Of a stretch of DNA of 64,000 nt, positions 3,508 through 21,859 are shown piece by piece (the first letter of the stretch is position 1; each line of letters opens with the position of its first letter). The stretch comes from Pseudomonadota bacterium. GTDB taxonomy: Bacteria; Pseudomonadota; Alphaproteobacteria; Rhodobacterales; Rhodobacteraceae. Below the pieces are notes generated by a model. It searched no databases and was not told where the DNA came from. It saw only the letters and a list, made by a program, of their open reading frames with translations. Location of the stretch: positions 1 through 64,000 of the forward strand of contig JAIUPD010000010.1 in NCBI GenBank assembly GCA_020161615.1, written 5' to 3'. Position numbers and translations under genes: made by a program.

Positions 3508-3508
3508 G

Positions 3509-7040: not shown

Positions 7041-7647
7041 AACGGGCCGTTTTCAGTGTCATATAGCGTGAGTAAACGACCGATTGAAAACCGATGCAAG
7101 GGCGCTCTCTGTGGTGCTGTTCGGCAGAAAACCCTTGGTTTCCATGGGCTGAACGAGATCACAGAGCCCTGCCGCAAAACGGTACCCGCGCTTTCTACAG
7201 ACGGGATCGGGGCATCAATCATTGGCTCCTGGGTAAGACGCAAAATAGCCAGATTTTGCAGATATGGAGCGTCAAGCTCAATATTTGACTGATGATTTTG
7301 ATTTCCCTCGACAGGTACGGAGAGAGCAACAGCCGTCCGGGGGATATCCGTGGTTCCCCAGTCCGATGGATGGTGAACCCCCGCCTCGCCTGCGGCGTGG
7401 CCCGGCAGGGTGGCGGCATAGCCACTTCCCGATCGCGGCGGCGGGGCTGAGCCGGGTCGTCGGTTGTGGGACGGAAGCGCAGGGCGCCTCGCCGCGGACA
7501 GCGCGCGACAGATCTCTGTCGTTCAACCGGAACTGGCGATCCGCGCCGATCGGCGACTTTGCCGCCGCCGTGTAAGGGTTACGGCGACCTCTGGCCCAGG
7601 CCAAAATATCTGATAAGATAGCAGAATGACTTATTGAGGAGATCCCG
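7041..7647. other. 600-base intergenic stretch with inverted repeats, no convincing gene
   Basis: Nothing here has coherent coding features on either strand. The first 270 bases are clearly lower in G+C than the surroundings. They contain GCAAAAT (7240-7246) paired with ATTTTGC (7253-7259) and a looser GTCAA...TTGAC pair at about 7273-7291. These could be the recombinase's recombination or operator site, since they sit 200 bases upstream of its start. The G+C-rich part (about 7380-7580) looks like remnant DNA with no recognisable product. The last 40 bases hold the promoter region of the alcohol dehydrogenase operon. Confidence 0.5.
7607..7620. promoter_or_regulatory. Candidate GntR operator 1 (before alcohol dehydrogenase)
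   Basis: TATCT-GATA-AGATA is a perfect 5-base inverted repeat ending 27 bases before the dehydrogenase ATG. It shares the GATAG/CTATC core with the other AT-rich sites of the cluster but fits the TAAAA-N6-TTTA pattern only weakly. It is the least certain of the six sites. Confidence 0.4.
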
Positions 7648-8748
7648 ATGCAGACCTTTGCCGCGGTGTTCCGTGATCCGACCGTCCCGGTCTCTGTCGA
7701 GCCGGTTACGCTGGATGATCCGGCGGGGGGCGAGGTCAGGGTCCGCCTTTCGGGCTGTGGCCTGTGCCATACCGATTTCCTCGCCGCCTCCGGCGCGCTG
7801 CCCTTCCCGCTGCCGGCGGTGCTGGGCCACGAGGGGGCGGGTGTGGTCGAAGCTGTCGGTCCCGGTGGCGATTCCGCGCTGATCGGCCGCTCGGTCATCC
7901 TGTCCTTCCGCAGTTGCGGTAGCTGCCCGCGATGCCGCGCCGCGCAATCGCCCTATTGCGACGACAAGCGCGCGCTGAACTTCTCGGGCCGCCGCCCGGA
8001 TGGTACGACCCCGTTTCGCGACCGCGAAGGGAAGCCGCTGGGTGCCTGCTTCTTTGGTCAGTCAAGCCTGGCGCGTCACGCCAATGTCTCGCTGCGAAAT
8101 CTCGTCGAGGTGCCGGCGCGCGACGACCTCTGGATGCTCGGCGCGCTGGGATGCGGGTTCCAGACCGGCGCGGGGGCGGTGCTGAACGTCCTGAAGCCCG
8201 AGGTCGGCGCTTCGGTTGTCATCATCGGTCTGGGTGCGGTGGGGATGGCGGCGCTGATGGCGGCCAAGGCCTCGGGCGCCGATCCGATCATCGCCGTCGA
8301 CCGCTCGCCCGAGAGGCTGGAGCTGGCGCGCGACTTCGGCGCCACCCATACCGTTCTGGCCGCGAGAGAGGATATCCCGGGCCAGATCCGCGCGATCACC
8401 GGCGGCGGCGCGGCCTATGCGGTGGAATGCGCGGGTAGCGCATCGACGGCGGCGCTGGCCCTGGACGCGCTGGCGATGCTGGGCAAGGCCGCGATCTGCG
8501 GCGCGGCCTCGGGGCAGGGGCCGCTGATGCTCGATCCGCACAAGCTGCTCTATGGCCGGAGCCTCCGCGGCGTGGTGCAGGGCGACAGCGAGCCTGCGGT
8601 GTTCATCCCGCATCTGTTGCGGCTGCAGGCGGCAGGGCAGTTTCCCTTCGAGCGGCTGGTGACCGGCTATGACTTCGACGACATCGGCGCGGCACTGGCC
8701 GCCGCCAAGGGAGGGCGCGCGGTGAAAGCCGTGGCGCGCATGACATGA
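7648..8748 (+). CDS. Zinc-dependent alcohol dehydrogenase (aryl-alcohol dehydrogenase type)
   Basis: This cytoplasmic medium-chain dehydrogenase (366 residues) would oxidise a primary alcohol to an aldehyde with NAD(P). Catalytic zinc ligands are Cys40, His61 and Cys169. Structural zinc ligands are Cys90, Cys93, Cys96 and Cys104. The Rossmann motif is GLGAVG (194-199), followed by an acidic Asp (VDRS) that favours NAD over NADP. It most resembles the benzyl/aryl-alcohol dehydrogenase branch, but the substrate is not fixed by sequence. The start has a GAGGAG ribosome-binding sequence. The stop overlaps the start of the next gene (ATGA), so the dehydrogenase and glutathione transferase are probably co-translated. 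Two aldehyde dehydrogenases further on could take its product. Confidence 0.88.
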   Translation: MQTFAAVFRDPTVPVSVEPVTLDDPAGGEVRVRLSGCGLCHTDFLAASGALPFPLPAVLGHEGAGVVEAVGPGGDSALIGRSVILSFRSCGSCPRCRAAQSPYCDDKRALNFSGRRPDGTTPFRDREGKPLGACFFGQSSLARHANVSLRNLVEVPARDDLWMLGALGCGFQTGAGAVLNVLKPEVGASVVIIGLGAVGMAALMAAKASGADPIIAVDRSPERLELARDFGATHTVLAAREDIPGQIRAITGGGAAYAVECAGSASTAALALDALAMLGKAAICGAASGQGPLMLDPHKLLYGRSLRGVVQGDSEPAVFIPHLLRLQAAGQFPFERLVTGYDFDDIGAALAAAKGGRAVKAVARMT

Positions 8749-9332
8749 TCCTCTACAGCCACCCGTTTTCCGGCAATGGCTGGAAGGTGCGCCTGTTCCT
8801 GTCGCTGATCGGGCAGGACTGCGAGATCCGCCCCGTGGACCTGCCGGGTGGCGAGAACCGTAGCACCGCCTTCCTCGACCTCAATCCGCGGGGTCAAGTG
8901 CCGGTGCTGGCGGTGCCTGAGGGTGTACTTTGGGACAGTCAGGCGATCCTTGTCTACCTCGCCGCGCGCCACGCGCCGGACTGGGGCGGGGACGATGCCT
9001 TTGAACGCGCCGCGGTGGCGCAATGGCTATCCTTCGCCGCCAAAGAGGTGGCGACCGGCCTGCAGGCGCTGCGCCTGCACCGGGTGATGGGCCGGCCGCT
9101 GGATGTGCCAGCCGCGACCCGGGTGGCGGAGGGAACGCTCACGCTGCTCGAAGGGCGGCTTGCCGCGCACGGCTGGCTGGTCGGAGAGCGTCCGACCATC
9201 GCCGAGGCGGCGGTCTATCCCTATGTCTCGATGGCGGGGGAAGCGGGGCTGTCGCTGGCTTCTTATCCTTCGATCCGCGGCTGGTGCGCGCGGATCGAGG
9301 CCTTGCCCGGTTTCCTGCCGATGGGCGCCTGA
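8745..9332 (+). CDS. Glutathione S-transferase family protein (first of two)
   Basis: This is a GST-fold protein of 195 residues. The N-terminal thioredoxin-like domain has MILYSHPFSGNGWKVRLFL, the cis-Pro region LNPRGQVPVL and the gamma-glutamyl-binding DSQAILVYLA. An all-helical C-terminal domain with the conserved Asp region ERPTIAEAAVYPYV follows. Ser or Asn residues near position 9-11 could activate glutathione. It overlaps the alcohol dehydrogenase by four bases, so the two act in one pathway. A second GST lies 2.5 kb on. Paired GSTs and a CoA-transferase suggest conjugation and later removal of glutathione during catabolism of an electrophile, but this is inference. Its 3' end overlaps the convergent hydrolase by 70 bases. 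Confidence 0.86.
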   Translation: MILYSHPFSGNGWKVRLFLSLIGQDCEIRPVDLPGGENRSTAFLDLNPRGQVPVLAVPEGVLWDSQAILVYLAARHAPDWGGDDAFERAAVAQWLSFAAKEVATGLQALRLHRVMGRPLDVPAATRVAEGTLTLLEGRLAAHGWLVGERPTIAEAAVYPYVSMAGEAGLSLASYPSIRGWCARIEALPGFLPMGA

Positions 9333-10126
9333 AGCAGCCCGATGCGCCGCGCCCAGTCGCCCATCGCCGCTGCCGCTTCGGCCGGGCGTTCGACCGGCAT
9401 GGCGTGGCTCGCGCCCTCGATGGCCATGGCGGTGACGCGCGGGCCGAGTTCCTCGGCGATCTCGGCCTCGGTCCCGGCCGGGCGGAACGGGTCCTGCGCG
9501 CCGCGCAGATCGAGGATCGGCGCGGTTCCGGCTGGGCGCCAATCCTCGGGCCGGGTTGCGGCGCGGGCCTTGCGCTGCATCTCCACCACCGCGGGATGCC
9601 AGCCCGCCAGCCACTCGGCCGGATCGTTACCCTCGGCGAAGAAGGCGAGTTTCAGCGCGGCCAGCCGGTCGGCTTCCGGCGTCATGGGGTCGTTGATCTC
9701 GGTAATCGCGCGGCTGAGTTCGGCAGGCCAGGCCTTCGCCCCGGCGGCGAGGAACACAACCCCGGATACCAGGTCGGCATGATCCTGCGCCAGGCAGCGC
9801 GCGATCCAGGCGCCATAGGCATGACCGGCGACGATGGCCCGGCCGCCCTCGGCCCGGATGATGTCCGCCAGATCGTCCGCGAGCTCGTGGAACGTCACCC
9901 CCTCCATCGGCCCCACCGAGGGCGCGATGCCGCGCGGCTCGGGCCGCAACACGCGGAAGCCCTGTTGCATCAGCCCGGCGGCGAGCGGCGCCATCTCGGC
10001 CCCGCAACGGCCGGTCGAGGCGATCAGCACAACCAGCGGCCCCGCGCCGTCGGCGCGATAGCCAAGCTGGCGCTCGCCCAGGTCCAGCACGACGGGTGTC
10101 TCGGTCACGGGCGGGATTTCTTGCAT
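9263..10126 (-). CDS. Alpha/beta hydrolase-fold protein with Ala at the nucleophile position
   Basis: This is a 287-residue alpha/beta hydrolase-fold protein. The nucleophile elbow reads VAGHAYGAW, so the usual Ser of G-x-S-x-G is Ala103 (codon GCC). The C-terminal GASHAMPVE keeps the catalytic-type His, and LRGAQDPFRP carries an Asp. Hydrolysis by the normal serine mechanism is therefore unlikely unless another residue acts. Cofactor-free lyase or non-enzymatic roles are possible. The ATG at 10126 is preferred. An ATG at 10174 would add 16 residues but lies against the operator at 10176-10194, leaving no room for a leader. It is divergent from the enoyl-CoA hydratase and shares that operator region. 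Confidence 0.75.
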   Translation of the reverse strand: MQEIPPVTETPVVLDLGERQLGYRADGAGPLVVLIASTGRCGAEMAPLAAGLMQQGFRVLRPEPRGIAPSVGPMEGVTFHELADDLADIIRAEGGRAIVAGHAYGAWIARCLAQDHADLVSGVVFLAAGAKAWPAELSRAITEINDPMTPEADRLAALKLAFFAEGNDPAEWLAGWHPAVVEMQRKARAATRPEDWRPAGTAPILDLRGAQDPFRPAGTEAEIAEELGPRVTAMAIEGASHAMPVERPAEAAAAMGDWARRIGLLQAPIGRKPGKASIRAHQPRIEG

Positions 10127-10149
10127 GGGCAGAGGGACTTCGCAGGTGG

Positions 10150-10194
10150 TTGACTCGGTTTCGGCTCCTAACATACATAAAACTATCTTTTATG
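10150..10194 (+). promoter_or_regulatory. Promoter with overlapping GntR-type operator 2 (best palindrome)
   Basis: TTGACT (10150-10155), an 18-base spacer and TACATA (10174-10179) form a promoter toward the enoyl-CoA hydratase. The perfect palindrome CATAAAA-CTATC-TTTTATG (10176-10194) overlaps the -10 element and extends downstream, a position expected for repression. Its 15-base core TAAAA-N6-TTTA (10178-10192) recurs before other genes of the cluster, including the GntR gene. Confidence 0.65.
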
Positions 10195-10231
10195 CAAATT
10201 GCCGCACCGAGGCGGCGATCCGGGGGAACGC

Positions 10232-10993
10232 ATGACCATCAATATCAGCCGCGCCGAGGGCATCGCCCGAATAGAGATCGACGTCCCGCCGGTCAACGCC
10301 ATCACCCTGCAGGATTACGCGGACATCCGCGATGCCTTTCGCGCCGCGCAGGATTGGCGCGATGTGAATGTCATCCTGTTCACTGCGACCGGCCGCAAGG
10401 CCTTCTGCGCCGGGCTCGACCTGAACGAATTCCTCGCGGCGACCATCGACCAGGACCCGGGCCGTGCCCGCATCGTCCGCGATTGCTTTGCTGCCGTCCG
10501 CCATGCCCCAGTGCCGGTGATCTGCGCGATCAGCGGCCCGGCTCTGGGGGCGGGGGCGGTGCTGGCCTCCTGCGCTGATATCCGCATCGCCGCCGATCAC
10601 GTCCGCTTCTCGACACCGGAAATCAATGTCGGTCGCTGCGGCGGGGCCTCGCATCTGATGCGCCACCTGCCCCAGGGTGTGCTGCGCCAGATGTATTTCA
10701 CCGCCCGCCCGCTGTCCGTGCAGGAGGCGGCAACCTATGGCTTCGTGCAGAAGATCGTCCCCTTCGAGGACCTCGATGCCGAGGCGATGGCGCTGGCGCG
10801 CGAGATCGCGGCCAAGGCGCCGATCGGGCTGCGCATGGCCAAGGAGGCGCTGAACAAGGTCGAGTTCATGCAGACCGAGGATGGCTATCAGCTGGAGCAG
10901 AGCTATTCGACCGCGCTGATGGCGACCGAGGACGCGCGCGAGGCGACCCGCGCCGTGGTCGAGAAACGGGCACCGGTCTGGAGGGGCCGCTGA
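10232..10993 (+). CDS. Enoyl-CoA hydratase/isomerase family protein
   Basis: This crotonase-fold protein (253 residues from the ATG at 10232, preceded by a GGGGGA ribosome-binding sequence) would hydrate or isomerise an enoyl-CoA. Recognisable blocks are AFCAGLDLNEF (oxyanion hole), ISGPALGAGAVLASCADIRIA and STPEINVGRCGG, whose Glu is the usual catalytic acid/base. A family C-terminus with AKEALNKVE follows. A TTG 33 bases upstream is a poor alternative start. It begins a two-gene unit with the serine alpha/beta hydrolase one base later. The promoter carries the strongest operator of the cluster. Confidence 0.88.
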   Translation: MTINISRAEGIARIEIDVPPVNAITLQDYADIRDAFRAAQDWRDVNVILFTATGRKAFCAGLDLNEFLAATIDQDPGRARIVRDCFAAVRHAPVPVICAISGPALGAGAVLASCADIRIAADHVRFSTPEINVGRCGGASHLMRHLPQGVLRQMYFTARPLSVQEAATYGFVQKIVPFEDLDAEAMALAREIAAKAPIGLRMAKEALNKVEFMQTEDGYQLEQSYSTALMATEDAREATRAVVEKRAPVWRGR

Positions 10994-10994
10994 C

Positions 10995-11756
10995 ATGCCG
11001 GTGCTGACGCTCCCGGACGGTCATGCGCTGGCCTATTCGGTCACCGGTCCCGAGGGCGCGCCCTGGCTGGTGCTCGGCAATTCGCTGATGACGACGCAGG
11101 CGATCTGGGCCGATCAGGTCGCCGCTTTCTCGGCCCGGTTCCGGGTGCTGACCTGGGACCAGCGCGGGCATGGCGCCTCGGCCGTGCCGGGCGGTCCCCT
11201 GGACATGCCCACACTCGGTGCGGATCTGGTCGCGCTTTGCGAGGCGCTCGAAGTGACCGAAGCGACCTATGTCGGCCTGTCGATGGGCGTGCCTACCGGG
11301 TTGGCGGCGCTGCCGGCGCTCGGCGGGCGGGTCACAGCGTTGGTGCTGGTCGACGGCCTCGCGGCCTCGTCCGGCGCCGCGTTCTGGGACGAGCGGATCG
11401 CTTTCGCGCGCGAAAACGGCATGGCGGCGCTGGCCGCGCAGACCGCCGAACGCTGGCTACCCTCGGACATGGGCAAGCGGCCGCAACTGGCGACGATGAT
11501 CGCTTCGGTCCCGCTGGAGGGCTTCGCCGCCTGCGCCCATGCCCTGCGCGGTTACGATGCCCGCGCGGCCTTCGAGGATTTCGCCGGGCCGGTCTTGCTG
11601 ATCGCAGGCGAGGCCGATGCGCGGATCGTGCCGGGGATGCAAGCCCTTGCGGACAGCAAGCCCGGCACCCGGCTGGCGCTGATCCCCGGCGCCGGGCATC
11701 TGCCCTGTTTCGAGGCGCCGGAGGCGTTCAACGCTCGGCTCGCCGAAACTCTATAA
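10995..11756 (+). CDS. Alpha/beta hydrolase, 3-oxoadipate enol-lactonase-like
   Basis: This is a serine alpha/beta hydrolase of 253 residues, close in pattern to PcaD-type enol-lactonases. The oxyanion/N-terminal block is LVLGNSLMTTQAIWADQV. VLTWDQRGHGAS and nucleophile elbow GLSMG with Ser96 follow, then an acid in LLIAGEADARIVPG and the catalytic His in IPGAGHLPCFE. Expected activity is hydrolysis of a lactone, ester or thioester. It follows the enoyl-CoA hydratase by one base and so is co-transcribed. A CMD-family protein 2 kb on recalls the pcaC/pcaD pairing, but no other protocatechuate genes are present. Confidence 0.84.
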   Translation: MPVLTLPDGHALAYSVTGPEGAPWLVLGNSLMTTQAIWADQVAAFSARFRVLTWDQRGHGASAVPGGPLDMPTLGADLVALCEALEVTEATYVGLSMGVPTGLAALPALGGRVTALVLVDGLAASSGAAFWDERIAFARENGMAALAAQTAERWLPSDMGKRPQLATMIASVPLEGFAACAHALRGYDARAAFEDFAGPVLLIAGEADARIVPGMQALADSKPGTRLALIPGAGHLPCFEAPEAFNARLAETL

Positions 11757-11757
11757 T

Positions 11758-11776
11758 CATAAAAGATAGTCTATTG
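11758..11776. promoter_or_regulatory. Candidate GntR operator 3 (before second glutathione transferase)
   Basis: CATAAAA-GATAG-TCTATTG has the same left half as the perfect palindrome at 10176 and an ATAG-T-CTAT dyad in its centre; the right half is degenerate. It starts two bases after the preceding hydrolase stop and lies 57-75 bases before the next start, so it marks a separate promoter. Confidence 0.5.
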
Positions 11777-11832
11777 ATTTATACGAAGGCGGCAGGCTAT
11801 GCTGACCCCGTTGCAAGAAAGGCCCCGCCGCG

Positions 11833-12489
11833 ATGATCCTGCTGTGGTCACCCAAATCCCCCTTCGTGCGCAAGGTGATGATCCTCGCGCATGAGTTGGG
11901 CATCGCCGAGGCGCTGGAACTGCGGCGCGAGGTTGCGGTGCCTCGCGGTCTGCCCAATCCCGCGATCATGGCGGTCAATCCGCTGGGCAAGATCCCGGCG
12001 TTGATCCGCAAGGAAGGTCCGGCGCTGATCGGCTCGGCCGAAATCCTCGACTATCTGTGCGAGATCACGCCGGGCGGCCGGGCGCTGCTGCCTGCCTCGG
12101 GCGAGGCGCGGGTGGTGCAGTTGCGCTGGCAGGCGCTGGCCGACCAGTTGACCGAGGTGCTGCTCGACTGGCGCATCGCCGCGACCGGCCCCCATGGCAT
12201 CGACGCCGCCCGTCGCGAAAGTTTCGAGGCCAAGGTGCGCGCCGGCATGGCCCTCTTCGAGGTAGAGGCTCCGCTGCTGCGCGAAGCGCCCTTCGGCCCC
12301 GGGCCGATCGCCCTGACCTGCGCGTTGGGGCAGCTCGATTTCCGCTTTCCCGCATGCGGCTGGCGCGCGGCCTTTCCCGCGCTCGCCCGCTTCGCCGCCG
12401 ACACGGCCGTCAGGCCCTCGGTCGCGGTGACGGCCATCGTCAACGATCAGGGCGTTTCCGGCCCCGACCTTCAGCTTACCTTCGAGTGA
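11833..12489 (+). CDS. Glutathione S-transferase family protein (second of two)
   Basis: This 218-residue GST-fold protein has an N-terminal thioredoxin domain with LWSPKSPFVRKVMI, where Ser9 is a likely glutathione-activating residue. LNPLGK-type cis-Pro segment VNPLGKIPALI and GSAEILDYLCE follow. The helical C-terminal domain is less typical, and it resembles the first cluster GST only in fold. It leads a three-gene unit with the CoA-transferase (three-base gap) and the CMD-family protein. Pairing of two unlike GSTs within one regulon suggests different steps, for example conjugation and thiol removal. The real substrate is unknown. Confidence 0.83.
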   Translation: MILLWSPKSPFVRKVMILAHELGIAEALELRREVAVPRGLPNPAIMAVNPLGKIPALIRKEGPALIGSAEILDYLCEITPGGRALLPASGEARVVQLRWQALADQLTEVLLDWRIAATGPHGIDAARRESFEAKVRAGMALFEVEAPLLREAPFGPGPIALTCALGQLDFRFPACGWRAAFPALARFAADTAVRPSVAVTAIVNDQGVSGPDLQLTFE

Positions 12490-12492
12490 CCC

Positions 12493-13671
12493 ATGCCCGG
12501 ACCTCTTTCCCATATCCGAGTCCTTGACCTGAGCCGCATCATGGCCGGCCCCTGGTGTACCCAGATGCTGGCCGACCTCGGCGCCGAGGTCATCAAGGTC
12601 GAGCGCGACGGCGTCGGCGACGACACCCGCCGCTGGGGTCCGCCCTGGCTCAAGGACGAATCCGGCGCCGATACCGACGAGAGCGGCTATTATCTTTCGG
12701 TTAACCGCGGCAAGCGGTCGGTTGCCGTCGATCTCGCCTCGGCCGAGGGGCAGGAGGTGGTCCGCCGCATCGCTGCCACCGCCGATATCATCGTCGAGAA
12801 TTTCCGCCCCGGTACGCTGGAACGCTATGGCCTCGGCTATGCGGACCTGAAGGCGGTGAAGCCCGACCTGATCTTCGCTTCGATCACCGGTTTCGGTGCA
12901 ACCGGTCCGCGGCGGAACGATTCCGCCTATGATTTCATGATCCAGGCCATGGGCGGGCTGATGAGCGTGACCGGCGAGGCCGATGGCCAGCCGGGCGGCG
13001 GGCCGCAGAAGGTCGGCGTGCCGATCGTCGACATCATGACCGGCATGTACACCTGCATCGCCTGCCTCGCCGCGCTCGCAAACCGCGAGAAGACCGGCCA
13101 AGGCGACCAGATCGACATTGCCATGCTCGATGTCTCGGTGGCGATGCTGGCCAATCAGGCGATGAATTACCTCGTCTCGGGCAAGGCGCCCACGCGCCGC
13201 GGCAACCGCCATCCGAACATCCAGCCGCAGGACGTTTTCCCGGTCGCCGATGGCTACATGGTCGTCGCCGTCGGCAATGACGAGCAATTCGAGCGGTTCG
13301 CCACTGTGCTGGGCATGCCCGGCTGGGCCGAGGATCCGCGTTACCGCACCAACGCCGCGCGGGTCGAGAATCTCTCGACGCTGCATCCGGCGATCTGCGC
13401 GCGGCTGCAGACCGCGCCGCTGGCCCATTGGCTGGAGCATCTGACCGCGGCCAAGGTGCCTTGCGGCCCCATCAACACCGTGCCGATGGTCTTCGACGAG
13501 CCGCAGGTGCGGGTCCGCGCGATGAAGCAGGAGCTGCCGCATCCGCTCGCTGGAGCCGTGCCGCAGGTGGTGAGCCCGATGCGCTTTGCCGCCGCGCCCC
13601 TGGTCTTCGACCGCGCCCCGCCGCTTCTGGGTGCCGATACCGAGGCGATCCTCGCCGAGCTTGGCCTGTGA
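12493..13671 (+). CDS. CaiB/BaiF family (class III) CoA-transferase
   Basis: This enzyme would activate an organic acid by transferring CoA from a donor thioester, or act as an alpha-methylacyl-CoA racemase-like protein. The 392-residue length is typical. N-terminal VLDLSRIMAGPWCTQMLAD and LGAEVIKVER are family signatures. AYDFMIQAMGGLMSVTG contains the expected catalytic Asp (about 147), and KVGVPIVDIMTGMY follows. It lies between the second GST and a CMD-family protein. In known isoprene clusters a family III CoA-transferase also accompanies paired GSTs, which makes the grouping notable. A second, distinct family III enzyme is in cluster 3 at 53537. Confidence 0.9.
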   Translation: MPGPLSHIRVLDLSRIMAGPWCTQMLADLGAEVIKVERDGVGDDTRRWGPPWLKDESGADTDESGYYLSVNRGKRSVAVDLASAEGQEVVRRIAATADIIVENFRPGTLERYGLGYADLKAVKPDLIFASITGFGATGPRRNDSAYDFMIQAMGGLMSVTGEADGQPGGGPQKVGVPIVDIMTGMYTCIACLAALANREKTGQGDQIDIAMLDVSVAMLANQAMNYLVSGKAPTRRGNRHPNIQPQDVFPVADGYMVVAVGNDEQFERFATVLGMPGWAEDPRYRTNAARVENLSTLHPAICARLQTAPLAHWLEHLTAAKVPCGPINTVPMVFDEPQVRVRAMKQELPHPLAGAVPQVVSPMRFAAAPLVFDRAPPLLGADTEAILAELGL

Positions 13672-13691
13672 CCATGGAAGGTGAGGCACCG

Positions 13692-14294
13692 ATGACTTCG
13701 CGCATTTCGCTCCCCGACCGCGACGGGATGGACGAGGCGCAGCGACGGGTCTTCGACATGATCGTCAGGGGTCGCCGCGGCGTGCTGGTGGGGCCGCTGC
13801 GCGCAGCCTTGCACAACCCGCAGCTGGCCGAGCGCTGGAGCCAACTGGGCGAGACCCTGCGTTTCGACACGCGGCTCGATCCCAAACATTCCGAGCTGGC
13901 GGTCCTGTTGACCGCGCGGCGCTGGAACAGCCAGCTGGAATGGGCGATCCACCGCCGCGATTCCGAACGCGCCGGGATCCGGGCCGAGGTGATCGAGGCG
14001 ATCCGCACCGGGCAGGTGCCGCCGCTGCAGGACCCGCACGAGATCGCAATCTACGATTACAGCGTCGAGCTTCTGTCGGGCGGTAATGTCGGGGACGCGA
14101 CCTATGCCGCCGTGGTTGCCCTCTGGGGGGAAGCGGGGGTTGTCGAGCTCACCGCGCTCATCGGCTATTACGCGCTGGTCGCGGCGACGCTCAATGTCCA
14201 TCGCATCCCGCTGCCCGACGGCGCCACCGCCGAGCTGGAGGTGGAGGATCTGCATCGCTTCACCGATCTGCCGCCCCGTCAGATCCCCGCTTGA
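13692..14294 (+). CDS. Carboxymuconolactone decarboxylase (CMD) family protein
   Basis: This helical protein of 200 residues resembles the CMD/AhpD superfamily. RMF-like start MDEAQRRVFD, LHNPQLAERWSQLGETLRF, ELAVLLTARRWNSQLEWAIH and EAIRTGQVPPL fit the family pattern. There is no CxxC peroxidatic motif, so an AhpD-type reductase role is unlikely. The ATG at 13692 is preferred because GGAAGGTGAGG lies at the right distance. An ATG at 13674 would add six residues. It follows the CoA-transferase in the same unit. A decarboxylase or lactone-handling role is plausible but not shown. Confidence 0.78.
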   Translation: MTSRISLPDRDGMDEAQRRVFDMIVRGRRGVLVGPLRAALHNPQLAERWSQLGETLRFDTRLDPKHSELAVLLTARRWNSQLEWAIHRRDSERAGIRAEVIEAIRTGQVPPLQDPHEIAIYDYSVELLSGGNVGDATYAAVVALWGEAGVVELTALIGYYALVAATLNVHRIPLPDGATAELEVEDLHRFTDLPPRQIPA

Positions 14295-14306
14295 TCCGTT
14301 CGATCA

Positions 14307-14321
14307 TAAAATCTAGCTTTA
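14307..14321. promoter_or_regulatory. Candidate GntR operator 4 (before the regulator gene itself)
   Basis: TAAAATCTAGCTTTA matches the TAAAA-N6-TTTA core exactly and has a CTAG centre. It lies 33-47 bases before the GntR ATG, which is the placement expected for autoregulation. Confidence 0.6.
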
Positions 14322-14354
14322 GGCTTCAAAGCGATTGCCAGCCTGGAGCCCGCC

Positions 14355-15086
14355 ATGAATGACGCCGCCAACACGCTGAAAAAAAGCGCGGTTTCCCGCT
14401 ATCTTCAGCTCTCCAGCCTGTTCCGCCGCCGCATCGACAGCGGCGAGTGGAAAACCGGTCAGCAGATTCCGACGGTCGAGGAACTGGCCAAGGAATGCGG
14501 CGTCGCCACGATGACCATCCGGCAGTCGCTGAACATTCTTGAGCAGGAAGGTCTGATCGAGCGTTTTCGGGCCAAGGGCACCTTCGTCAAGGAGCGCCCG
14601 AAACAGGATCTGTGGTGCCAGGTGCAGACCGATTTCTCGGGCCTGCTGATCGGTCGCGACGGCGCGAAGATCGAGGTCTTGTCGGTCGAATCCGGCGCCT
14701 CGCTGCCGATGCGTCACAGCGACATCGGCCGCAGCGCCGAGAGCTATCGCCACCTGCGCCGCCGCCATACCCGTGACGGCAAGGCTTTCCTTCTTGCCGA
14801 TGTCTATATCTCGGAACGGATCATGCCCCTGATTGCCGAGGCCGATTTCTCGCGCAAGACAGCGCTGCGACTGGTGGCGGATGTGGCGCAGCTGACCATC
14901 GCCCAAGCGCATCAGACCCTGACCATCGGCATGCCCGACATGGTCGTGGCCGAAATGCTGAACATCAGCCTGACCGATCCCATTGCCCGGGTGGAACGCT
15001 CGGCCGTCGATGAAACCGGCGAGCTGGTGCTGTTCGCCGATGGCTTCTATCGCGGCGACCAGGTTCGCATCGACTTCAAGCTCTAG
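14355..15086 (+). CDS. GntR-family (HutC/UTRA type) transcriptional regulator
   Basis: This 243-residue regulator has an N-terminal winged helix at about residues 14-80 (SRYLQLSSLFRRRIDSGEW, then VEELAKECGVATMTIRQSLN and FRAKGTFV). The C-terminal effector domain is of the UTRA type, seen in HutC and FarR proteins, ending ARVERSAVDETGELVLFADGFYRGDQV. Such regulators release DNA on binding a pathway metabolite. It sits alone between two catabolic units and is preceded by an operator like those before its neighbours. It is the obvious candidate for control of the whole 7.6-23.9 kb cluster. Confidence 0.9.
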   Translation: MNDAANTLKKSAVSRYLQLSSLFRRRIDSGEWKTGQQIPTVEELAKECGVATMTIRQSLNILEQEGLIERFRAKGTFVKERPKQDLWCQVQTDFSGLLIGRDGAKIEVLSVESGASLPMRHSDIGRSAESYRHLRRRHTRDGKAFLLADVYISERIMPLIAEADFSRKTALRLVADVAQLTIAQAHQTLTIGMPDMVVAEMLNISLTDPIARVERSAVDETGELVLFADGFYRGDQVRIDFKL

Positions 15087-15087
15087 T

Positions 15088-15139
15088 CAAAAAACTATTA
15101 AAGCATAATATTGACATTTATCCGCGCGGCTGGCAGGTT
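15088..15139 (+). promoter_or_regulatory. Promoter for the reductase/dehydrogenase/TRAP operon with operator 5
   Basis: A CAAAAAACTATT half-site (15088-15099) resembles the left half of the perfect operator. Directly downstream, TTGACA (15111-15116) is a consensus -35. A 17-base spacer is followed by a poor -10 (CAGGTT, 15134-15139). GTCAA (15086-15090) and TTGAC (15111-15115) also form an inverted repeat across the region. The half-site lies upstream of -35, unlike the 10176 site. Confidence 0.5.
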
Positions 15140-15165
15140 CGTCGCGCGTGATCGAGGAGCATGGC

Positions 15166-16134
15166 ATGAAATCTGTATCGCTGGGCGGCACCGGTCTGAA
15201 GGTGTCCGAACTGTGCTTCGGCACCATGTCCTTCGGTTCGTACAGTGACGCCTCGACGGCAAAGGCGATGATGGCGGCCTGCCTCGATGTGGGCATCAAC
15301 TTCTTCGATTGCGCCAATTCCTATGCTGGCCAGGGCAAGGCCGAGGCCATTCTCGGCGAGTGTCTGTCCGATCTGGACCGCCAGAAGCTTGTGATCACCA
15401 CCAAGGTCTGCCGGCCGATGTCGCCGGACATGAACGGCTCGGGCCTGTCGCGACGGCACATCATGCTGGAGGTCGAAAACAGCCTGCGCCGCCTGCGCAC
15501 CGATTACATCGACGTCTATTTCGCCCATCACTACGACCCGGCCACCCGCCCCGAGGAGACGCTGCGCGCCTTCGAGGATCTGCGCCGTCAGGGCAAGATC
15601 GTCTATGCCGGCGTTTCGAACTGGGCCGCCTGGCGGGTCGCGGACGCCCTGGGGATCTCGGCGCGCGAGGGGATCGTCGGTTTCGACGTGCTGCAGCCGA
15701 TGTACAACCTTGTGAAGCGTCAGGCCGAGGATGAGCTCTTCCCGCTGGCCGAGGCGAAGAAGCTGGGCGTCATGGTCTTCTCGCCCCTGGCGAGCGGCCT
15801 TCTGACCCGCGCCAATGCCGACCCGGACGGCCCCCGGCAGGGCCGTCTGGCCGAGGCGCGGTACCTCAAGCGCTACGAGGACCGCCACAATTTCGAGGTG
15901 GCGCGCGACTTCTGCGTCATCGCCGACGAGATGGGCGTCGACCCGGCTGCGCTGGCCGTCGCCTGGTGCGCGAGCCATCCCGCCGTCACCACCCCCATCA
16001 TCGGCGCCGAGACGGTCGAACAGATCGCCGGCTACGTCGCCGCCACCGAGATCTCGCTCACGCCCGAGCAGCGGGCGCGGATTTCCGCCCTCACCGAGCG
16101 GCCGGATTACGAGATCGAACGCAAGATCGACTGA
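15166..16134 (+). CDS. Aldo/keto reductase
   Basis: This NADPH-dependent oxidoreductase has a TIM-barrel fold and 322 residues from the ATG at 15166, which is preceded by GAGGAGC. A GTG 18 bases earlier is less likely. The catalytic tetrad is visible: Asp48 and Tyr53 in FFDCANSYAGQGKAE, Lys in KLVITTKVC and His in DVYFAHHYDP. KVSELCFGTMSFG and GVSNWAAWRV are family blocks, close to the AKR11/12-like group. It probably reduces an aldehyde or ketone, or oxidises the alcohol in reverse. It is the first gene of a six-gene unit ending with the TRAP permeases. Confidence 0.88.
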   Translation: MKSVSLGGTGLKVSELCFGTMSFGSYSDASTAKAMMAACLDVGINFFDCANSYAGQGKAEAILGECLSDLDRQKLVITTKVCRPMSPDMNGSGLSRRHIMLEVENSLRRLRTDYIDVYFAHHYDPATRPEETLRAFEDLRRQGKIVYAGVSNWAAWRVADALGISAREGIVGFDVLQPMYNLVKRQAEDELFPLAEAKKLGVMVFSPLASGLLTRANADPDGPRQGRLAEARYLKRYEDRHNFEVARDFCVIADEMGVDPAALAVAWCASHPAVTTPIIGAETVEQIAGYVAATEISLTPEQRARISALTERPDYEIERKID

Positions 16135-16147
16135 CAGGACCAAGATC

Positions 16148-17596
16148 ATGGCATCCGAACCGATCCTCCTCGATCATCTGATCGACAATGCCGCAGCCGA
16201 GGGCGGGCCGCGTATCGAGCTGCGCGATCCCGGCAATCTCGACGAAGTGGTGGCGCTGGTTGCGCAAGCCGACACCGCGACCGTGGACCGCGCCGTGCGC
16301 TCGGCCCATGCCGCCTTTCCCCTCTGGCGCGATACGCCGCTGGCCGAACGCTGCGCGCGCCTGCGCGCCGCGGCGGATACGCTGGTTGCCGCCGCCGATG
16401 AGGTCATTGCCGTCATGGCGCGGGAATCGGGCATGCTGCCCGGCACCAACAAGGCCGAGATCGGCATGGCCGCCGCCATCGTGCGCGACAATGCCGATCA
16501 CGCCGAGACGAGCCTTGCCCCCGCCTGTTTCGAAGATGCCGACAGCACGGTCGAGGTTGAAAAGGTTGCGGTCGGTGTGATCGCCGCCATTGTACCATGG
16601 AATGCGCCGGTGATCCTGGCCATGCGCAAGGTCTCGCCGGCGCTGGCGGTGGGTAACACTGTCGTCGTCAAGACCGCGCCCACCGCGCCCATCGGGCTGA
16701 CCCGCCTGCTGCAGGCCTTTGCCGCGCATTTCCCCGCCGGCGTTATCAACGTGGTGCAGGGCGGCGGCGAGACCGGCTCGGCGCTTGTCGCGCATCCGCT
16801 TGTCGCGCGGGTTTCCTTCACCGGCGGCCTCAAGGTCGCGCAGATCATCATGAAACAGGCCGCCGCCGATCTGAAGCGCGTGAGCTTCGAGCTCGGCGGC
16901 AACGATCCGGCGATCCTGTTGCCGGACGCCGATCTCGACAAGGCGGTGCCGCGCATCATGGGCGGCGCCTTCCGCCGCGCCGGGCAGTTCTGCTTCGCGG
17001 TGAAGCGCGTCTATGTCCCCCGCGCGCTGGCGCCCGAGCTGATCGCGCGGATGAAGGCCGATCTCGACACATTCGTCGTCGGCCATCCGCTGACCGCTGG
17101 CGTCACCGTCGGGCCGATCAACAACAAGGGCCAGTTCGACTATCTGCTGGGCCTGCGCGAGCGGGTCCGCGCCTCGGGCGTGACCTATCTCGAGGGCGGG
17201 ACGCAAGCCGATCCGCAGCTCTGGGACAAGGGCTATTACATGATGCCCGCGCTTGTCACCGACATCGACCCCGAGCACGAGCTGGTCACCACCGAGCAAT
17301 TCGGCCCGATCCTGCCGATCGTCGTCTATGACGATCTCGACGCGGTGATCGACAGCATCAACGCGGGCGAGCTGGGCCTCGGCTCCTCGGTCTGGGGCGA
17401 GGATCTGGACGCGGCGCTGGACGTGGCGCGGCGGATCGAGGCCGGGATGACCTTCATCAACAACGCGGGCACCTCGCGGCTGGGACAACGCTACATGCCG
17501 TTTGGCGGCGTCAAGCGCAGCGGCATCGGGCGCGAAAGCTCACCGGTCGGTCTGGGCGAACACTTCGCCCTGCACGCGATGAACTATCACAAGTGA
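16148..17596 (+). CDS. NAD(P)-dependent aldehyde dehydrogenase (first of a tandem pair)
   Basis: This enzyme oxidises an aldehyde to a carboxylic acid. The ATG at 16148, 13 bases after the reductase stop, gives 482 residues, normal for the family. Conserved points are IVPWNAP (149-155), SFTGG (223-227), the general-base Glu248 in ELGGNDPAIL and nucleophilic Cys282 in GQFCFAVKR. The C-terminus has the usual PFGGVKRSGIGRE. It is followed after seven bases by a second, clearly related dehydrogenase. It may take the aldehyde from the alcohol dehydrogenase at 7648 or another step of the pathway. Confidence 0.92.
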   Translation: MASEPILLDHLIDNAAAEGGPRIELRDPGNLDEVVALVAQADTATVDRAVRSAHAAFPLWRDTPLAERCARLRAAADTLVAAADEVIAVMARESGMLPGTNKAEIGMAAAIVRDNADHAETSLAPACFEDADSTVEVEKVAVGVIAAIVPWNAPVILAMRKVSPALAVGNTVVVKTAPTAPIGLTRLLQAFAAHFPAGVINVVQGGGETGSALVAHPLVARVSFTGGLKVAQIIMKQAAADLKRVSFELGGNDPAILLPDADLDKAVPRIMGGAFRRAGQFCFAVKRVYVPRALAPELIARMKADLDTFVVGHPLTAGVTVGPINNKGQFDYLLGLRERVRASGVTYLEGGTQADPQLWDKGYYMMPALVTDIDPEHELVTTEQFGPILPIVVYDDLDAVIDSINAGELGLGSSVWGEDLDAALDVARRIEAGMTFINNAGTSRLGQRYMPFGGVKRSGIGRESSPVGLGEHFALHAMNYHK

Positions 17597-17603
17597 GACG
17601 GCC

Positions 17604-19064
17604 ATGAGCGACATTCCCACCCTCCGCAATTTCGTCGCCGGGCAATGGCTGGGCGAGGCCGCGCCGTTCGAGGTCCGCGACCCCGGCCACCGCGACACGA
17701 TCCTCGCCCATGTGGTGCCCGCCGATGCGGCCCTGGTCGATCAGGCGGTGAGTGCTGCCGTCAAGGCACAGAAGCTCTGGGCCTGCGTGCCGGTGGCCGA
17801 GCGTGCCGCCGCGGTGCTGGCCGCCGCCGACCGGATCGAGGCCGAGGCCGACAAGGGGCTCGATGGCCTCGTGCGCGAGGTCGTGCTGGAGACCGGCATG
17901 CTGCCCGGCGAGATCACTCTGGAATTCCGCGGCGCCGCCTTTGCCGCGCGCGACAATGTCGAAGCCGCGCAGGTGGCGCTGGAGCCCGAGGTGATCGAGG
18001 ACGAAAGCTCCATCGTGCGCATCGAGCGTCGGCCCATCGGCGTGGTCGCGGCCATCGTCCCGTGGAACGCGCCGATCGTGCTGATGATCCGCAAATTCGC
18101 CCCGGCGCTGGTGGCCGGTTGCGCGCTGGTGGTGAAGACCCCGCCGACCGCGCCCATCGGCATCACCAAATTGCTGGCCGGGCTGGCCGAGCTGTTCCCG
18201 GCCGGGGTCATCAATGTCGTGCACGGCTTCGGCGAGGTCGGGGCGGCGTTGTCCGCGCATCCGCTGGTCCGGCTCGTCAGCTTCACCGGCGGCGGTGTCG
18301 CGGCGCGGGCGATCATGGCGACGGCGGCCGACACGATGAAGAATGTGCAGTTCGAGCTGGGCGGCAATGACGCGGCCATCGTGCTGGACGATTTCGACAT
18401 CGAGACGCAGATCCCGATGCTGATGGCCGGGGCCTTCCACCGCTCGGGGCAGTTCTGCTTTGCCATCAAGCGGCTTTATGTGCCGGACGCGATCTATGAC
18501 CGCGTGTTCGATGCGATGGCGGCCTACCTGGATGCGCAGAAGATCGGCCATCCGCTGGATCCGGCAACGACCTTCGGGCCGATCAACAACAAGGCCCAGT
18601 TCGATTTCCTGCAAGGGCTGATCGCCCGCAGCCGCGCCGCGGGGGCGGAGCTGATCGAACTGGGCACGCCGGTCGATCCCGCGCAATGGGAGACGGGCAA
18701 TTACATGAAGCCGGTTCTGGTGCGCGATGCCGCGCCGGGGTTGGAAGCGGTGACCTGCGAGCAGTTCGGGCCTGTTCTGCCCGTGCTGCGCTACCACGAC
18801 CTCGATGCTGTCGTGGCGCAGGCGAACCGGACGGAATACGGGTTGGGCTCGTCGATCTGGACCAGAGACGAGGGACGCGGCAAGGCTCTGGCACGCCGGC
18901 TCGAGGCCGGTATGACCTTCATCAACAAGAACGCGCAATCGCGGCTGGGCCGGCGGCACATGCCTTTCGGCGGGATCAAGCAGAGCGGCATCGGCACCGA
19001 GAATGCCGAATATGGCCTGTATGAATTCACCGAGATCCACGCGATCAACATTCACAAGGCCTGA
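17604..19064 (+). CDS. NAD(P)-dependent aldehyde dehydrogenase (second of a tandem pair)
   Basis: This is a paralogue of the preceding gene, 486 residues, with IVPWNAP (152-158), SFTGG (226-230), Glu251 in ELGGNDAAIV and Cys285 in GQFCFAIKR. Long stretches match the first copy almost residue for residue (for example VVKT-PTAPIG and GPINNK-QFD). The pair probably arose by tandem duplication with later divergence. Retention of both suggests two different aldehydes or a dialdehyde handled in succession. The stop is immediately followed by the SDR start. Confidence 0.92.
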   Translation: MSDIPTLRNFVAGQWLGEAAPFEVRDPGHRDTILAHVVPADAALVDQAVSAAVKAQKLWACVPVAERAAAVLAAADRIEAEADKGLDGLVREVVLETGMLPGEITLEFRGAAFAARDNVEAAQVALEPEVIEDESSIVRIERRPIGVVAAIVPWNAPIVLMIRKFAPALVAGCALVVKTPPTAPIGITKLLAGLAELFPAGVINVVHGFGEVGAALSAHPLVRLVSFTGGGVAARAIMATAADTMKNVQFELGGNDAAIVLDDFDIETQIPMLMAGAFHRSGQFCFAIKRLYVPDAIYDRVFDAMAAYLDAQKIGHPLDPATTFGPINNKAQFDFLQGLIARSRAAGAELIELGTPVDPAQWETGNYMKPVLVRDAAPGLEAVTCEQFGPVLPVLRYHDLDAVVAQANRTEYGLGSSIWTRDEGRGKALARRLEAGMTFINKNAQSRLGRRHMPFGGIKQSGIGTENAEYGLYEFTEIHAINIHKA

Positions 19065-19823
19065 ATGATGCAGGATCTGGAACAGCAGGGGCTGCTTGCG
19101 GGGAAAGTGGCGCTGGTCACGGGCGGGCTGTCGGGCATCGGCCGCGCCATCGCGCGGAGCTTCGCTCAGGCCGGGGCGACGGTGATCGTCGCCGATCTTT
19201 CGGTCGCGCCCGGGACGTTCGCCCGCTGCGAGACCGGCGATGCCCACCGCTGCGACGTCGCGGACGAGGCCTCGGTCAAGGCGCTGGCCGAGGCCCTCGC
19301 CGCGCGGCACGAGGGGCTCGACATCCTGGTCAATTGCGCGGGGATGCCGCAGAAGCCGGTGGCGCTGGCCGAGGCGAGCCTGGCGGAATGGGACCGGCTG
19401 TTCGCGGTCAACGCGCGCTCGATCTTCGTGATGACCAAGCATTTCCTGCCCGCGCTGGCGCGGCGCAAGGGCAATGTCATCAACATCTGCTCGACCGTCG
19501 GCGCCCAGGCCAAGCCGGGCCTTGCGGCCTATGGCGCCTCGAAGGCTGCGGCGATCTCGACCACCAAGGCACTGGCGCTGGAACTGGCGGAGCAGGGGAT
19601 CCGGGTCAACGGCATCAGCCCCGGCGCGGTAGAAACGCCGATGCTGACGGGCTTCGCCGATGGCGACCCGGCCGAGATCAAGGCGGCCTTCGCCCGTCTG
19701 GTCCCGCTGGGCGAGATCGTCCAGCCCGACGATGTGGCCGGTGCGGCGCTTTACCTCGGTTCGTCCCTCGGGCGACTGGTCACGGGGGTCATCATCACCG
19801 TCGACGGGGGACGCACCGCCTGA
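19065..19823 (+). CDS. Short-chain dehydrogenase/reductase (classical SDR)
   Basis: This is a 252-residue classical SDR. The cofactor site is TGGLSGIGRAIA, with VADLS after beta-2 suggesting NAD. NCAG is present as NCAGMP, the catalytic Ser lies in ICSTVGAQ and the Tyr/Lys dyad in YGASKAAA. The C-terminal GVIITVDGG is typical. It starts at the base after the preceding stop, so is coupled to the aldehyde dehydrogenases. Probable role is oxidation of a secondary alcohol or 3-hydroxyacyl intermediate. In other GST-based pathways an SDR oxidises the glutathione adduct, so it could act with the GSTs. Confidence 0.9.
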   Translation: MMQDLEQQGLLAGKVALVTGGLSGIGRAIARSFAQAGATVIVADLSVAPGTFARCETGDAHRCDVADEASVKALAEALAARHEGLDILVNCAGMPQKPVALAEASLAEWDRLFAVNARSIFVMTKHFLPALARRKGNVINICSTVGAQAKPGLAAYGASKAAAISTTKALALELAEQGIRVNGISPGAVETPMLTGFADGDPAEIKAAFARLVPLGEIVQPDDVAGAALYLGSSLGRLVTGVIITVDGGRTA

Positions 19824-19850
19824 GAGGGCGGGCGAGGGGAGGGGCCACCT

Positions 19851-20372
19851 ATGAAACAGTTGCTTGCCGCTGCGATCCTGCCGTCACGGCTGTCGACCAC
19901 GCTGGGCGCCGTCGCGACTGCCGCGATGGCGCTGCACATCTCGGCCGAGGTGCTGTCGCGGCTGGTCTGGGGTCAGAGCCTGTTCGGCACGATCGAGATC
20001 ATTTCGTATTATTACATGGTCGCCGCGTCCTTCCTGCCGCTCGCCAGCGCGCAATTGCAGGGGCAGATGATCACCACCGATGTCTTCGCCAAGATCGTTC
20101 CGGCGCGGATCCGGCCGGTTACGGATTTCCTCGGCCGGCTGGTGTCGCTGGCAACCTGCGGGATGCTGATCTGGGCGGGCTGGGTACAGGCGCTGGCCAA
20201 GACCCGTGTGAATGAAGCGATTTCCGGTCTGGGCGCGCCGGTGCTGGTCTGGCCGTCACGCTGGATGCTGGTCATCGGGTTGGCGGCGCTGTTCCTGGCG
20301 CAACTGGTCCAGTTGCCGCGCGGCGTCGCCTCGGACGAGGACACGCCGCCCGGAGCCGGAGCGCGCGGATGA
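19851..20372 (+). CDS. dctQ: TRAP transporter small permease (DctQ family)
   Basis: This small membrane subunit of a tripartite ATP-independent periplasmic transporter has 173 residues with about four hydrophobic segments (around 15-33, 50-70, 92-112 and 132-150). A strong GAGGGGAGGGG ribosome-binding sequence precedes the ATG. It lies 27 bases after the SDR and 45 bases before the large permease. The transporter uses an ion gradient to import an organic acid captured by the DctP protein at 21860. Confidence 0.87.
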   Translation: MKQLLAAAILPSRLSTTLGAVATAAMALHISAEVLSRLVWGQSLFGTIEIISYYYMVAASFLPLASAQLQGQMITTDVFAKIVPARIRPVTDFLGRLVSLATCGMLIWAGWVQALAKTRVNEAISGLGAPVLVWPSRWMLVIGLAALFLAQLVQLPRGVASDEDTPPGAGARG

Positions 20373-20417
20373 CCATGCCCTTCGTTTCGCGGCCCGGCCG
20401 CAGGGGAGCTTTAGCCG

Positions 20418-21725
20418 ATGAATCCTGACCTCGGTTTCTATTCGCTCGGCGCCTTGATGGTGCTGCTGGTGCTGCGCGTCCCGATCGGTCTGGCGCTGAC
20501 CGCGGTTGCCTTTGTCGGCCTTTACCTGTTGCGCGGCTTCAATCCCGCCTTCGGGGTGCTGAAGGCCACGCCCTTCGAGTTCGTGGCCCACTGGACGCTC
20601 TCGGCGGTGCCCATGTTCGTGCTGATCGGCGCCATCGCCTCGCATTCGGGGATGGTGGGGCGGATTTTCCGGGCGCTGAAGCTCTGGCTGGGCTGGTTGC
20701 CCGGCGGCCTCGCCATCGCCACCAGCTTCGCCGGGGCCGGTTTCGCGGCCATGTCGGGCTCGAGCCTGGCGACGACGGCCGCGATGGGCCGCATCGCCGT
20801 GCCCGAGATGTTGAAGGAAGGCTACCAGCCCGCCCTCGCCACCGGCGTTGCCACCGCCGTAGGCACGATTGGCGCGCTGATCCCGCCCTCGATCATCATG
20901 GTCATCTATGCCACTTTTGCCGAGGTGTCCGCCTCGAAGATGCTTATCGCGGGGGTCATTCCCGGCATCCTGACCGCCATCGCCTATGCCAGCCTTGTGG
21001 CGATCCGCTGCCTGATCAACCCCGAGCTCGCACCGGTCATCGCCCGCCGGCAGGCCGAGCGGCGCGAGCATCTGCGTGGCTTCCTCGATGTCCTGCCGGT
21101 GCTGATCCTGGGCCTGGGCATCACGGGTTCGATCTATGCCGGGATTGCCACCTCGACCGAAGCGGCCGGCTTCGGCGTCCTGCTGACGCTGATCATCGTC
21201 ATGGCGCAACGGGTGTTGAGCTGGCGTGGCCTCAGGGACTCGATCTACGAGACGACCGTAACGACTGCCTCGATCTTCCTGATCGCCATCGGCGCGGCGA
21301 TGATGACTCAGTTCCTGGCCTTCACCGGAATGCCCCGGGTGCTGTCGGGCGCCATCATGGGGATCACAGCGGATCCCGTCGGCATCATGCTGATCTGCTG
21401 TCTGCTCTACCTGATCCTGGGCTGCTTCCTCGATCCGATGGGGGTCATGCTGCTGACCCTGCCGATCATCCTGCCGATCATCGACAATGCCGGGATCGAC
21501 CCGATCTGGGCCGGCGTGATCCTGGTCAAGATGCTGGAGGTGGGACTGCTGACGCCGCCGGTGGGGCTGAATTGCTTTGTCATGAAAAGCACGCTGGGCG
21601 GGCAGGTCTCGTTGGGGACGATCATCAAGGGCACCAGCTGGTTCCTGACGGTCGAGGCGGTGGTCGTCGCCCTGATGCTGGCTTTCCCGTCGATCATCCT
21701 GTTCCTGCCTTCGCTGATGGATTGA
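20418..21725 (+). CDS. dctM: TRAP transporter large permease (DctM family)
   Basis: This is the main translocation subunit, 435 residues with about 12 hydrophobic segments. DctM landmarks are SAVPMFVLIGAIASHSG, FAAMSGSSLATTAAMGRIAVPEM, IGALIPPSIIMVIYA and LGCFLDPMGVMLLTLPIILPI. It follows the DctQ gene and ends in a strong intrinsic terminator at 21735, so the reductase-to-TRAP operon stops here. The binding protein has its own promoter. Confidence 0.93.
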   Translation: MNPDLGFYSLGALMVLLVLRVPIGLALTAVAFVGLYLLRGFNPAFGVLKATPFEFVAHWTLSAVPMFVLIGAIASHSGMVGRIFRALKLWLGWLPGGLAIATSFAGAGFAAMSGSSLATTAAMGRIAVPEMLKEGYQPALATGVATAVGTIGALIPPSIIMVIYATFAEVSASKMLIAGVIPGILTAIAYASLVAIRCLINPELAPVIARRQAERREHLRGFLDVLPVLILGLGITGSIYAGIATSTEAAGFGVLLTLIIVMAQRVLSWRGLRDSIYETTVTTASIFLIAIGAAMMTQFLAFTGMPRVLSGAIMGITADPVGIMLICCLLYLILGCFLDPMGVMLLTLPIILPIIDNAGIDPIWAGVILVKMLEVGLLTPPVGLNCFVMKSTLGGQVSLGTIIKGTSWFLTVEAVVVALMLAFPSIILFLPSLMD

Positions 21726-21734
21726 CCTGTCGAG

Positions 21735-21760
21735 ACGGCGCGCGATGGCGCGCCGTTTTC
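21735..21760 (+). terminator. Intrinsic terminator after dctM
   Basis: ACGGCGCGC (21735-21743), loop GATG, GCGCGCCGT (21748-21756), then TTTC. The nine-pair GC-rich stem with a short T-run lies nine bases after the dctM stop codon. Confidence 0.8.
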
Positions 21761-21789
21761 GTACCCGCAGGGGTGAATCAGCAATAGAC

Positions 21790-21804
21790 TAAAAGCTATG
21801 TTTA
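21790..21804. promoter_or_regulatory. Candidate GntR operator 6 (before the TRAP binding protein)
   Basis: TAAAAGCTATGTTTA fits the TAAAA-N6-TTTA core exactly. An AT-rich TATATATTATAG segment follows directly and probably contains the -10 element of the dctP promoter. The site is 56-70 bases before the dctP ATG. Confidence 0.6.
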
Positions 21805-21859
21805 TATATTATAGGGATCGAGACACGAATCGCTTCGATCACTTTTGGGAGGAATGTGA

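Follow-up and report, generated by a model that had tools for sequence, protein, structure and literature searches.

A GntR/UTRA regulator and four predicted CTAG/CTAT operators in an enzyme and TRAP transporter gene cluster of a Rhodobacteraceae bacterium

The stretch of DNA analyzed here, referred to as the window, comprises 64,000 nucleotides from a bacterium of the Rhodobacteraceae (contig JAIUPD010000010.1, positions 1 to 64,000), whose genome amounts to 4.87 Mb in 26 contigs. It harbors a cluster of enzyme and TRAP transporter genes, which includes gntR, the gene of a regulator with a GntR-family helix-turn-helix (HTH) and a UTRA domain, as well as four candidate operators (Table 1). A preliminary description of this DNA had proposed up to six copies of an AT-rich palindromic operator, combined into a regulon of about 14 kb under the control of the GntR/UTRA protein. 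Our analysis follows up the regulator, its putative binding sites, and their conservation in other genomes.

Table 1. Coordinates of the regulator gene, the candidate operators, and the genes of the cluster.
Feature	Position	Strand	Evidence or remark
gntR, GntR-family HTH + UTRA domain regulator, 243 amino acids	14355..15086	+	Pfam; NagR/YvoA alignment; residues across relatives
Candidate operator TAAAATCTAGCTTTAG before gntR	14307..14322	.	rank 1 in window; kept in Pararhodobacter aggregans
Candidate operator ATAAAACTATCTTTTA between divergent alpha/beta hydrolase (-) and enoyl-CoA hydratase (+)	10177..10192	.	rank 2; intergenic
Candidate operator TAAAAGCTATGTTTAT before TRAP binding protein gene dctP (21860)	21790..21805	.	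rank 3
Candidate operator TAAAAGATAGTCTATT before glutathione S-transferase (11833); one side partly degenerate	11760..11775	.	rank 4 with global, 5 with local background
Alpha/beta hydrolase, divergent, adjoins 10177 operator	9263..10174	-	family search
Enoyl-CoA hydratase/isomerase; start 10199 or 10232	10232..10993	+	Pfam ECH_1
Alpha/beta hydrolase, like 3-oxoadipate enol-lactonase PcaD	10995..11756	+	below NCBIfam cut-off
Glutathione S-transferase	11833..12489	+	beside gntR in four relatives' loci
Class III CoA-transferase, nearest succinate--glutarate CoA-transferase	12493..13671	+	below NCBIfam cut-off
Carboxymuconolactone decarboxylase-like protein	13665..14294	+	Pfam CMD 22.1 vs cut-off 23
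Aldo/keto reductase, two aldehyde dehydrogenases, short-chain dehydrogenase/reductase (SDR), DctQ, DctM	15148..21725	+
TRAP transporter binding protein DctP	21860..22969	+

By its domain make-up, the regulator is a member of the HutC (UTRA) subfamily of the GntR family: the N-terminal GntR winged HTH (E = 7e-18) and the C-terminal UTRA domain (E = 3.8e-18) both pass the Pfam cut-off. The histidine utilization repressor HutC (TIGR02018) is the top-scoring NCBIfam model; but with 103.3 bits against a curated cut-off of 220, the regulator falls outside this equivalog, and none of the 19 proteins scanned with Pfam is a histidine-pathway enzyme. Among named organisms, Pararhodobacter aggregans D1-19 is the closest relative found, with 96% identity between the two regulators. 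Further relatives are 53–61% identical, with a clear gap to the remaining loci at 36% or less. In the phylogenetic tree, a single branch (support 100/99) separates the 20 regulator sequences of this clade from the others, and the members of every comparison group also stay together; within the clade, the branching order of the lines with Thr, Asn, Gly, or Arg at residue 52 (Thr52, Asn52, Gly52, and Arg52) is not settled. At E ≤ 1e-60, a clade regulator is found in 6 out of 389 other genomes of the order and in none out of 384 in the class-wide search. The family-wide search predicts clade members, as judged from scores, in 6 out of 393 other genomes, and 18 other genomes pass E ≤ 1e-30. For 16 genomes of the same genus (some incomplete; this genome and P. 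aggregans excluded), the best relative of the regulator reaches only E = 1e-26 at 29% identity. Three loci (L056, L072, and L074) possess two diverged regulator copies in one cluster, i.e. one Thr52 and one Gly52 copy, which suggests a duplication with a change of specificity.

The operator motif was learned outside the window: in ten loci of relatives (54–61% identical), the 200 bases flanking gntR on either side were taken (20 sequences), with the window and P. aggregans excluded. A search for palindromic motifs with random starts and a local background – the CTAG sites of L032 and L033 had already been noticed by eye – yielded AAAAAGCTAGCTTTTT de novo, with strong sites in 9 of the 20 sequences and a search objective of 47.0, compared to 21.7–27.6 in 15 local-shuffle controls. 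At a score of at least 18.8, no match occurs in 61 simulated sequences of 64 kb, and partly overlapping control loci of 152,867 bp in total contain only one (L011).

When the window is scanned with this matrix and a global background, 14307 (score 24.0), 10177 (23.8), 21790 (22.1), and 11760 (18.9) occupy the first four ranks, and the next position scores 14.9. With a local background they rank 1, 2, 3, and 5, while a palindrome at 7243 takes rank 4. All four good sites are retained in P. aggregans. The other two proposed copies, 15088 (best 15099) and 7607 (best 7612), rank 12 and 44 with the global background and 98 and 102 with the local one; furthermore, the P. aggregans equivalent of 7607 retains GATAAGATAG but has lost the opposite arm. 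Owing to these low ranks and the lost arm, we count four sites instead of six. These four look real by the comparative evidence, and their assignment to the regulator appears well supported. The local regulon and its autoregulation are supported, without the sites at 7607 and 15088; since the former is unsupported, our results lend no support to a control of the dehydrogenase at 7648.

The pattern TAAAA-N6-TTTA of the preliminary description does have exact matches in the window, but only at 10178, 14307, and 21790 (shuffle mean 0.00, n = 100). As the register of the motif, however, it is wrong: the operator centre is CTAG/CTAT, and the three exact sites differ in their register to this core. 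It was rejected as the true motif because the first two of the more distant loci to be tried, L032 and L033, do not contain it and have CTAG-centred sites instead. Likewise, the stretch 10176-10194, previously taken as a perfect 19-base palindrome, matches in seven out of nine pairs, and its centre CTATC is non-palindromic.

The four sites are all intergenic and AT-rich, as would be expected if the matches were ordinary AT-rich promoter sequence of a GC-rich genome; in addition, expectation maximization with a uniform background on 78 intergenic segments recovered an AT-rich profile only and was dropped. But the CTAG palindrome persists when a local background is applied, under which the sites keep the high ranks given above, and the signal survives in held-out loci. 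Moreover, 38 distinct non-clade GntR rows score at most 16.6 in the 250 bases upstream, whereas all 12 Thr52 clade members, six of which were training members, have a site of at least 19.5 before gntR. We consider this explanation very improbable.

The held-out set consists of five later-found loci, absent from the training, with seven gntR copies. All four Thr52 members possess a site before gntR, which is rank 1 of about 19,500–19,900 positions per locus. For the Asn52 member, the top site upstream of gntR scores 12.6 and ranks fourth in its locus, with three stronger sites elsewhere, and the two Gly52 second copies have no site before gntR. In L061, a Gly52 locus, a good site (22.3) is located just downstream of gntR. 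In the loci of four relatives whose genes were read (L032, L033, and two plasmids, L062 and L063), gntR recurs in the company of genes for a glutathione S-transferase, a class III CoA-transferase, an alpha/beta hydrolase, and a carboxymuconolactone decarboxylase-like protein. A plasmid of Paracoccus marcusii carries sites of 17.3–20.6 before protocatechuate dioxygenase, alpha/beta hydrolase, gntR, and enoyl-CoA hydratase genes; one 17.3 site on this plasmid precedes an unrelated penicillin-binding protein gene.

Whole genomes were examined by pattern searches with up to three mismatches. According to the preliminary description, a motif that is common outside the cluster would have contradicted the regulon; this was not seen, as all three AAANCTAKNTTT places of this genome lie inside the gntR cluster. 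The counts inside the cluster are three out of three in P. aggregans, two out of two in a metagenome-assembled genome of Silicimonas, and two out of nine in Primorskyibacter. The strict pattern AAANCTAGNTTT has nine distinct places, seven of them in a gntR cluster; they come from 5 of the 16 genomes or records searched, and the other 11 have none. With three mismatches or fewer, TAAAANCTAKNTTTTA is found at 14 distinct places in this genome, only three of which have two mismatches or fewer, all in the cluster. For TAAAA-N6-TTTA, there is just one place in the genome beyond those in the window, C15:11420; the matrix gives C15:11419 a score of 18.2, but the CTA core is lacking. The probability that at least three of these four places fall in a 14.2-kb stretch by chance is 1e-7, where the ends of the stretch are themselves set at sites. 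Rarity alone is no proof, because the reversed pattern is equally frequent (six strand hits each genome-wide); it is the clustering that carries weight. The operator is shared by the promoters of the regulator gene and of the cluster and is rare elsewhere in the genome, in accordance with an autoregulated local regulon.

The assignment of the sites to GntR depends on co-occurrence, and a different regulator acting on the cluster, for instance of the LysR or IclR type, could be their owner. Two sites that resemble the motif, C1:435036 (16.8) and 435054 (13.6), are located between rbcL and a LysR-type gene of divergent orientation, so that AT-rich palindromes of other regulators can look similar to it. 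What speaks against another regulator is that the motif adjoins gntR in several genera while the other neighbors partly differ, that one of the site-bearing promoters is that of gntR itself, and that the 16 same-genus genomes without a close relative of the regulator (some incomplete) have AAANCTAKNTTT at only 0–3 scattered places each. We regard this alternative as improbable. The pair at C1, two tandem CTAT-type sites (L064:2537-2570 = G000:C1:435036-435069), was rejected as a further GntR target; it probably belongs to the LysR-type regulator beside rbcL, and a CbbR-type site is likelier.

The consensus for the HutC subfamily in PMC4494728 is NyGTMTAKACNy; in 13 clade rows, no GTNTANAC occurs within 250 bases before gntR. 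Thus the earlier claim that the site type is unlike GT-N-TA-N-AC is correct insofar as the operator departs from it, but the gap is narrower than claimed, because the TA centre is retained. In NagR, Arg38 reads G-5 and Arg48 reads G-4, as described in PMC4333415. The alignment with NagR/YvoA places Glu42 and Thr52 of the regulator at these two positions, so that the guanine-reading arginines are absent, and the bases at -5 and -4 are adenines here but guanines in the NagR operator. Throughout the clade, E, K, D, I, V, or M is found at residue 42 and T, N, or G at residue 52, where L063 alone has R. For six loci whose regulators have arginine at both positions (R42/R52 group), the motif is AAAGGTCTAGACCTTT (objective 49.7, compared to 18.0–23.7 in 12 controls), and each of the six sites shows GG at -5/-4 in one half or both. 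The clade motif shares the CTAG centre and the AAA/TTT edges with AAAGGTCTAGACCTTT; the difference is confined to positions 3-5, counted from the centre. A third group (S/T42 and K52; five loci) yields the motif ATTCTATATATAGAAT. In the predicted structure of the regulator, which is of low confidence (mean pLDDT 62.5), residue 42 is situated in the first turn of helix 41-48 and residue 52 in that of helix 52-64. Related Lys52 GntR proteins in L043, L044, L045, L047, and L048 have a very regular palindrome CTATATATAG before their genes, also without GT/AC.

At positions 3-5 from its centre, the operator may depart from GGT-C-TA-G-ACC because Glu42 and Thr52 replace the arginines that read G-5 and G-4, a causality that we infer; the relation between residues and bases is a correlation across deep branches and not a causal proof. 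In our judgement the chances are even that the clade represents a natural recoding of the HutC operator, in which the loss of two guanine-reading arginines accompanied a change from GGTCTAGACC to AAGCTAGCTT and the CTAG centre and A/T edges were kept. If this is true, nature already provides, in these two groups, a test case for the GntR recognition code: restoring the arginines should shift the preference towards the usual operator. A well-conserved operator together with named residue changes makes it possible to test directly which base is read by which residue. Searches for GntR operators by the usual GT/AC consensus would miss the clade, and the matrix can be used to find the regulon in other Rhodobacterales.

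Several observations weigh against this interpretation of the regulator, its operators, and its changed specificity. The R42/R52 group is just 28–31% identical, i.e. far more than two residues have changed. The clade members with Gly52 (n = 5) and Arg52 (n = 1) have no good site before their own gntR, and those with Asn52 score 18.8 and 12.6; some of the clade genes without an upstream site may sit inside operons. In L042, which has Thr52 but lies outside the clade, the best score is only 7.6, and no such site is present. Primorskyibacter has seven out of nine AAANCTAKNTTT places outside the cluster. The reversed patterns are about as frequent or more frequent: three strand hits compared to four for AAANCTAKNTTT in this genome, 40 compared to 18 for TAAAANCTAKNTTTTA with up to three mismatches, and 12 places compared to nine for AAANCTAGNTTT over all records. 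The site counts per genome are hence unremarkable, and the argument rests on location and conservation. Finally, the relatives share ancestry and, consequently, do not represent independent events.

Computation shows the sites, how they are conserved next to gntR, and which residues have changed; from this we infer binding, repression, and an effector as follows. A GntR/UTRA dimer would bind the CTAG/CTAT palindromes, with half-site AAAAGCTA, at 14307, 10177, 21790, and 11760; it would then control its own gene together with the enzyme and TRAP uptake genes of the cluster, probably by repression, and an acid or CoA-ester of the pathway in the UTRA domain would probably release it. As far as can be judged from sequence, we assign a probability of roughly 0.85 to an autoregulated GntR/UTRA regulator with four CTAG/CTAT operators, which is a probable repressor of these genes and owes its specificity to the loss of arginines. 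The main rival concerns the sign of the control, i.e. an activator or a regulator with a dual role. We compared the promoters at 12 sites of relatives (10 before gntR and two before the alpha/beta hydrolase gene; L061, L062, L076, and two further L032 sites excluded): a TTGA/TTGT-type -35 element begins 19 bases past the start of the site in 11 of them and 18 bases in one, followed by a 17-base spacer to a TA-type -10 element, although another pair scores one point higher in L074. A site just upstream of the -35 element is a position where activators also bind. In the window, by contrast, the placement varies as for a repressor: relative to the site, a -35 element lies at -27 for 10177, at -5 for 21790, and at -32 (best) or +14 (second) for 11760, all weak matches to the consensus, and none is convincing for 14307. 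The sites there overlap or neighbor likely promoter elements, and NagR, the best solved relative, blocks transcription (PMC4333415). Activation is therefore unlikely in our view, and within the overall interpretation we clearly favor repression with effector release via the UTRA domain.

Among known systems, the GntR/HutC repressors NagR (YvoA) of Bacillus subtilis and DasR of Streptomyces, which act on dre sites, share the GntR HTH and the UTRA domain with the regulator. The dre consensus of NagR/DasR has a CTAG centre. NagR/YvoA aligns with residues 6-237, with the same fold and a palindromic operator, whereas the pathway genes differ, in addition to the arginines and guanines mentioned above. 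As exceptions to the usual consensus in the GntR family, PMC4494728 lists BioR (TTATMKATAA), placed there in the FadR subfamily, and SdhR, both with atypical AT-rich palindromes; the present operator likewise breaks the consensus, but the motifs differ. The main text of that paper contains no word beginning with CTAG, its supplements being outside this search, and in a search of the open-access literature, which did not cover supplements, no description of the operator or the cluster was found. The regulator appears to be a new specificity variant within a known family, and the kind of system is ordinary.

With regard to the genes under putative control, the reductase operon downstream of gntR has no validated site of its own and may be read through from gntR. 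As a guess, the cluster may encode a CoA-dependent pathway whose substrate is an acid, either dicarboxylic or derived from an aromatic compound.

Some further features were noticed on the contig and in the relatives' clusters. The palindrome GCAAAATAGCCAGATTTTGC at 7243-7258, with a counterpart at L031:2969, is located about 200 bases upstream of a resolvase gene (6153-7040, minus strand) and is possibly a resolvase site. By reading alone, the replication and partition genes at 1151-4804 resemble a repABC unit; the contig is therefore probably a plasmid or chromid. A longer palindrome, AGCTATA-NN-TATAGCT, is present at L072:6928, L074:13808, and L075:5821 in the clusters of relatives, two of which also carry the second, Gly52 regulator copy, and a related one, AGGTTAT-N4-ATAACCT, occurs at L063:12756.

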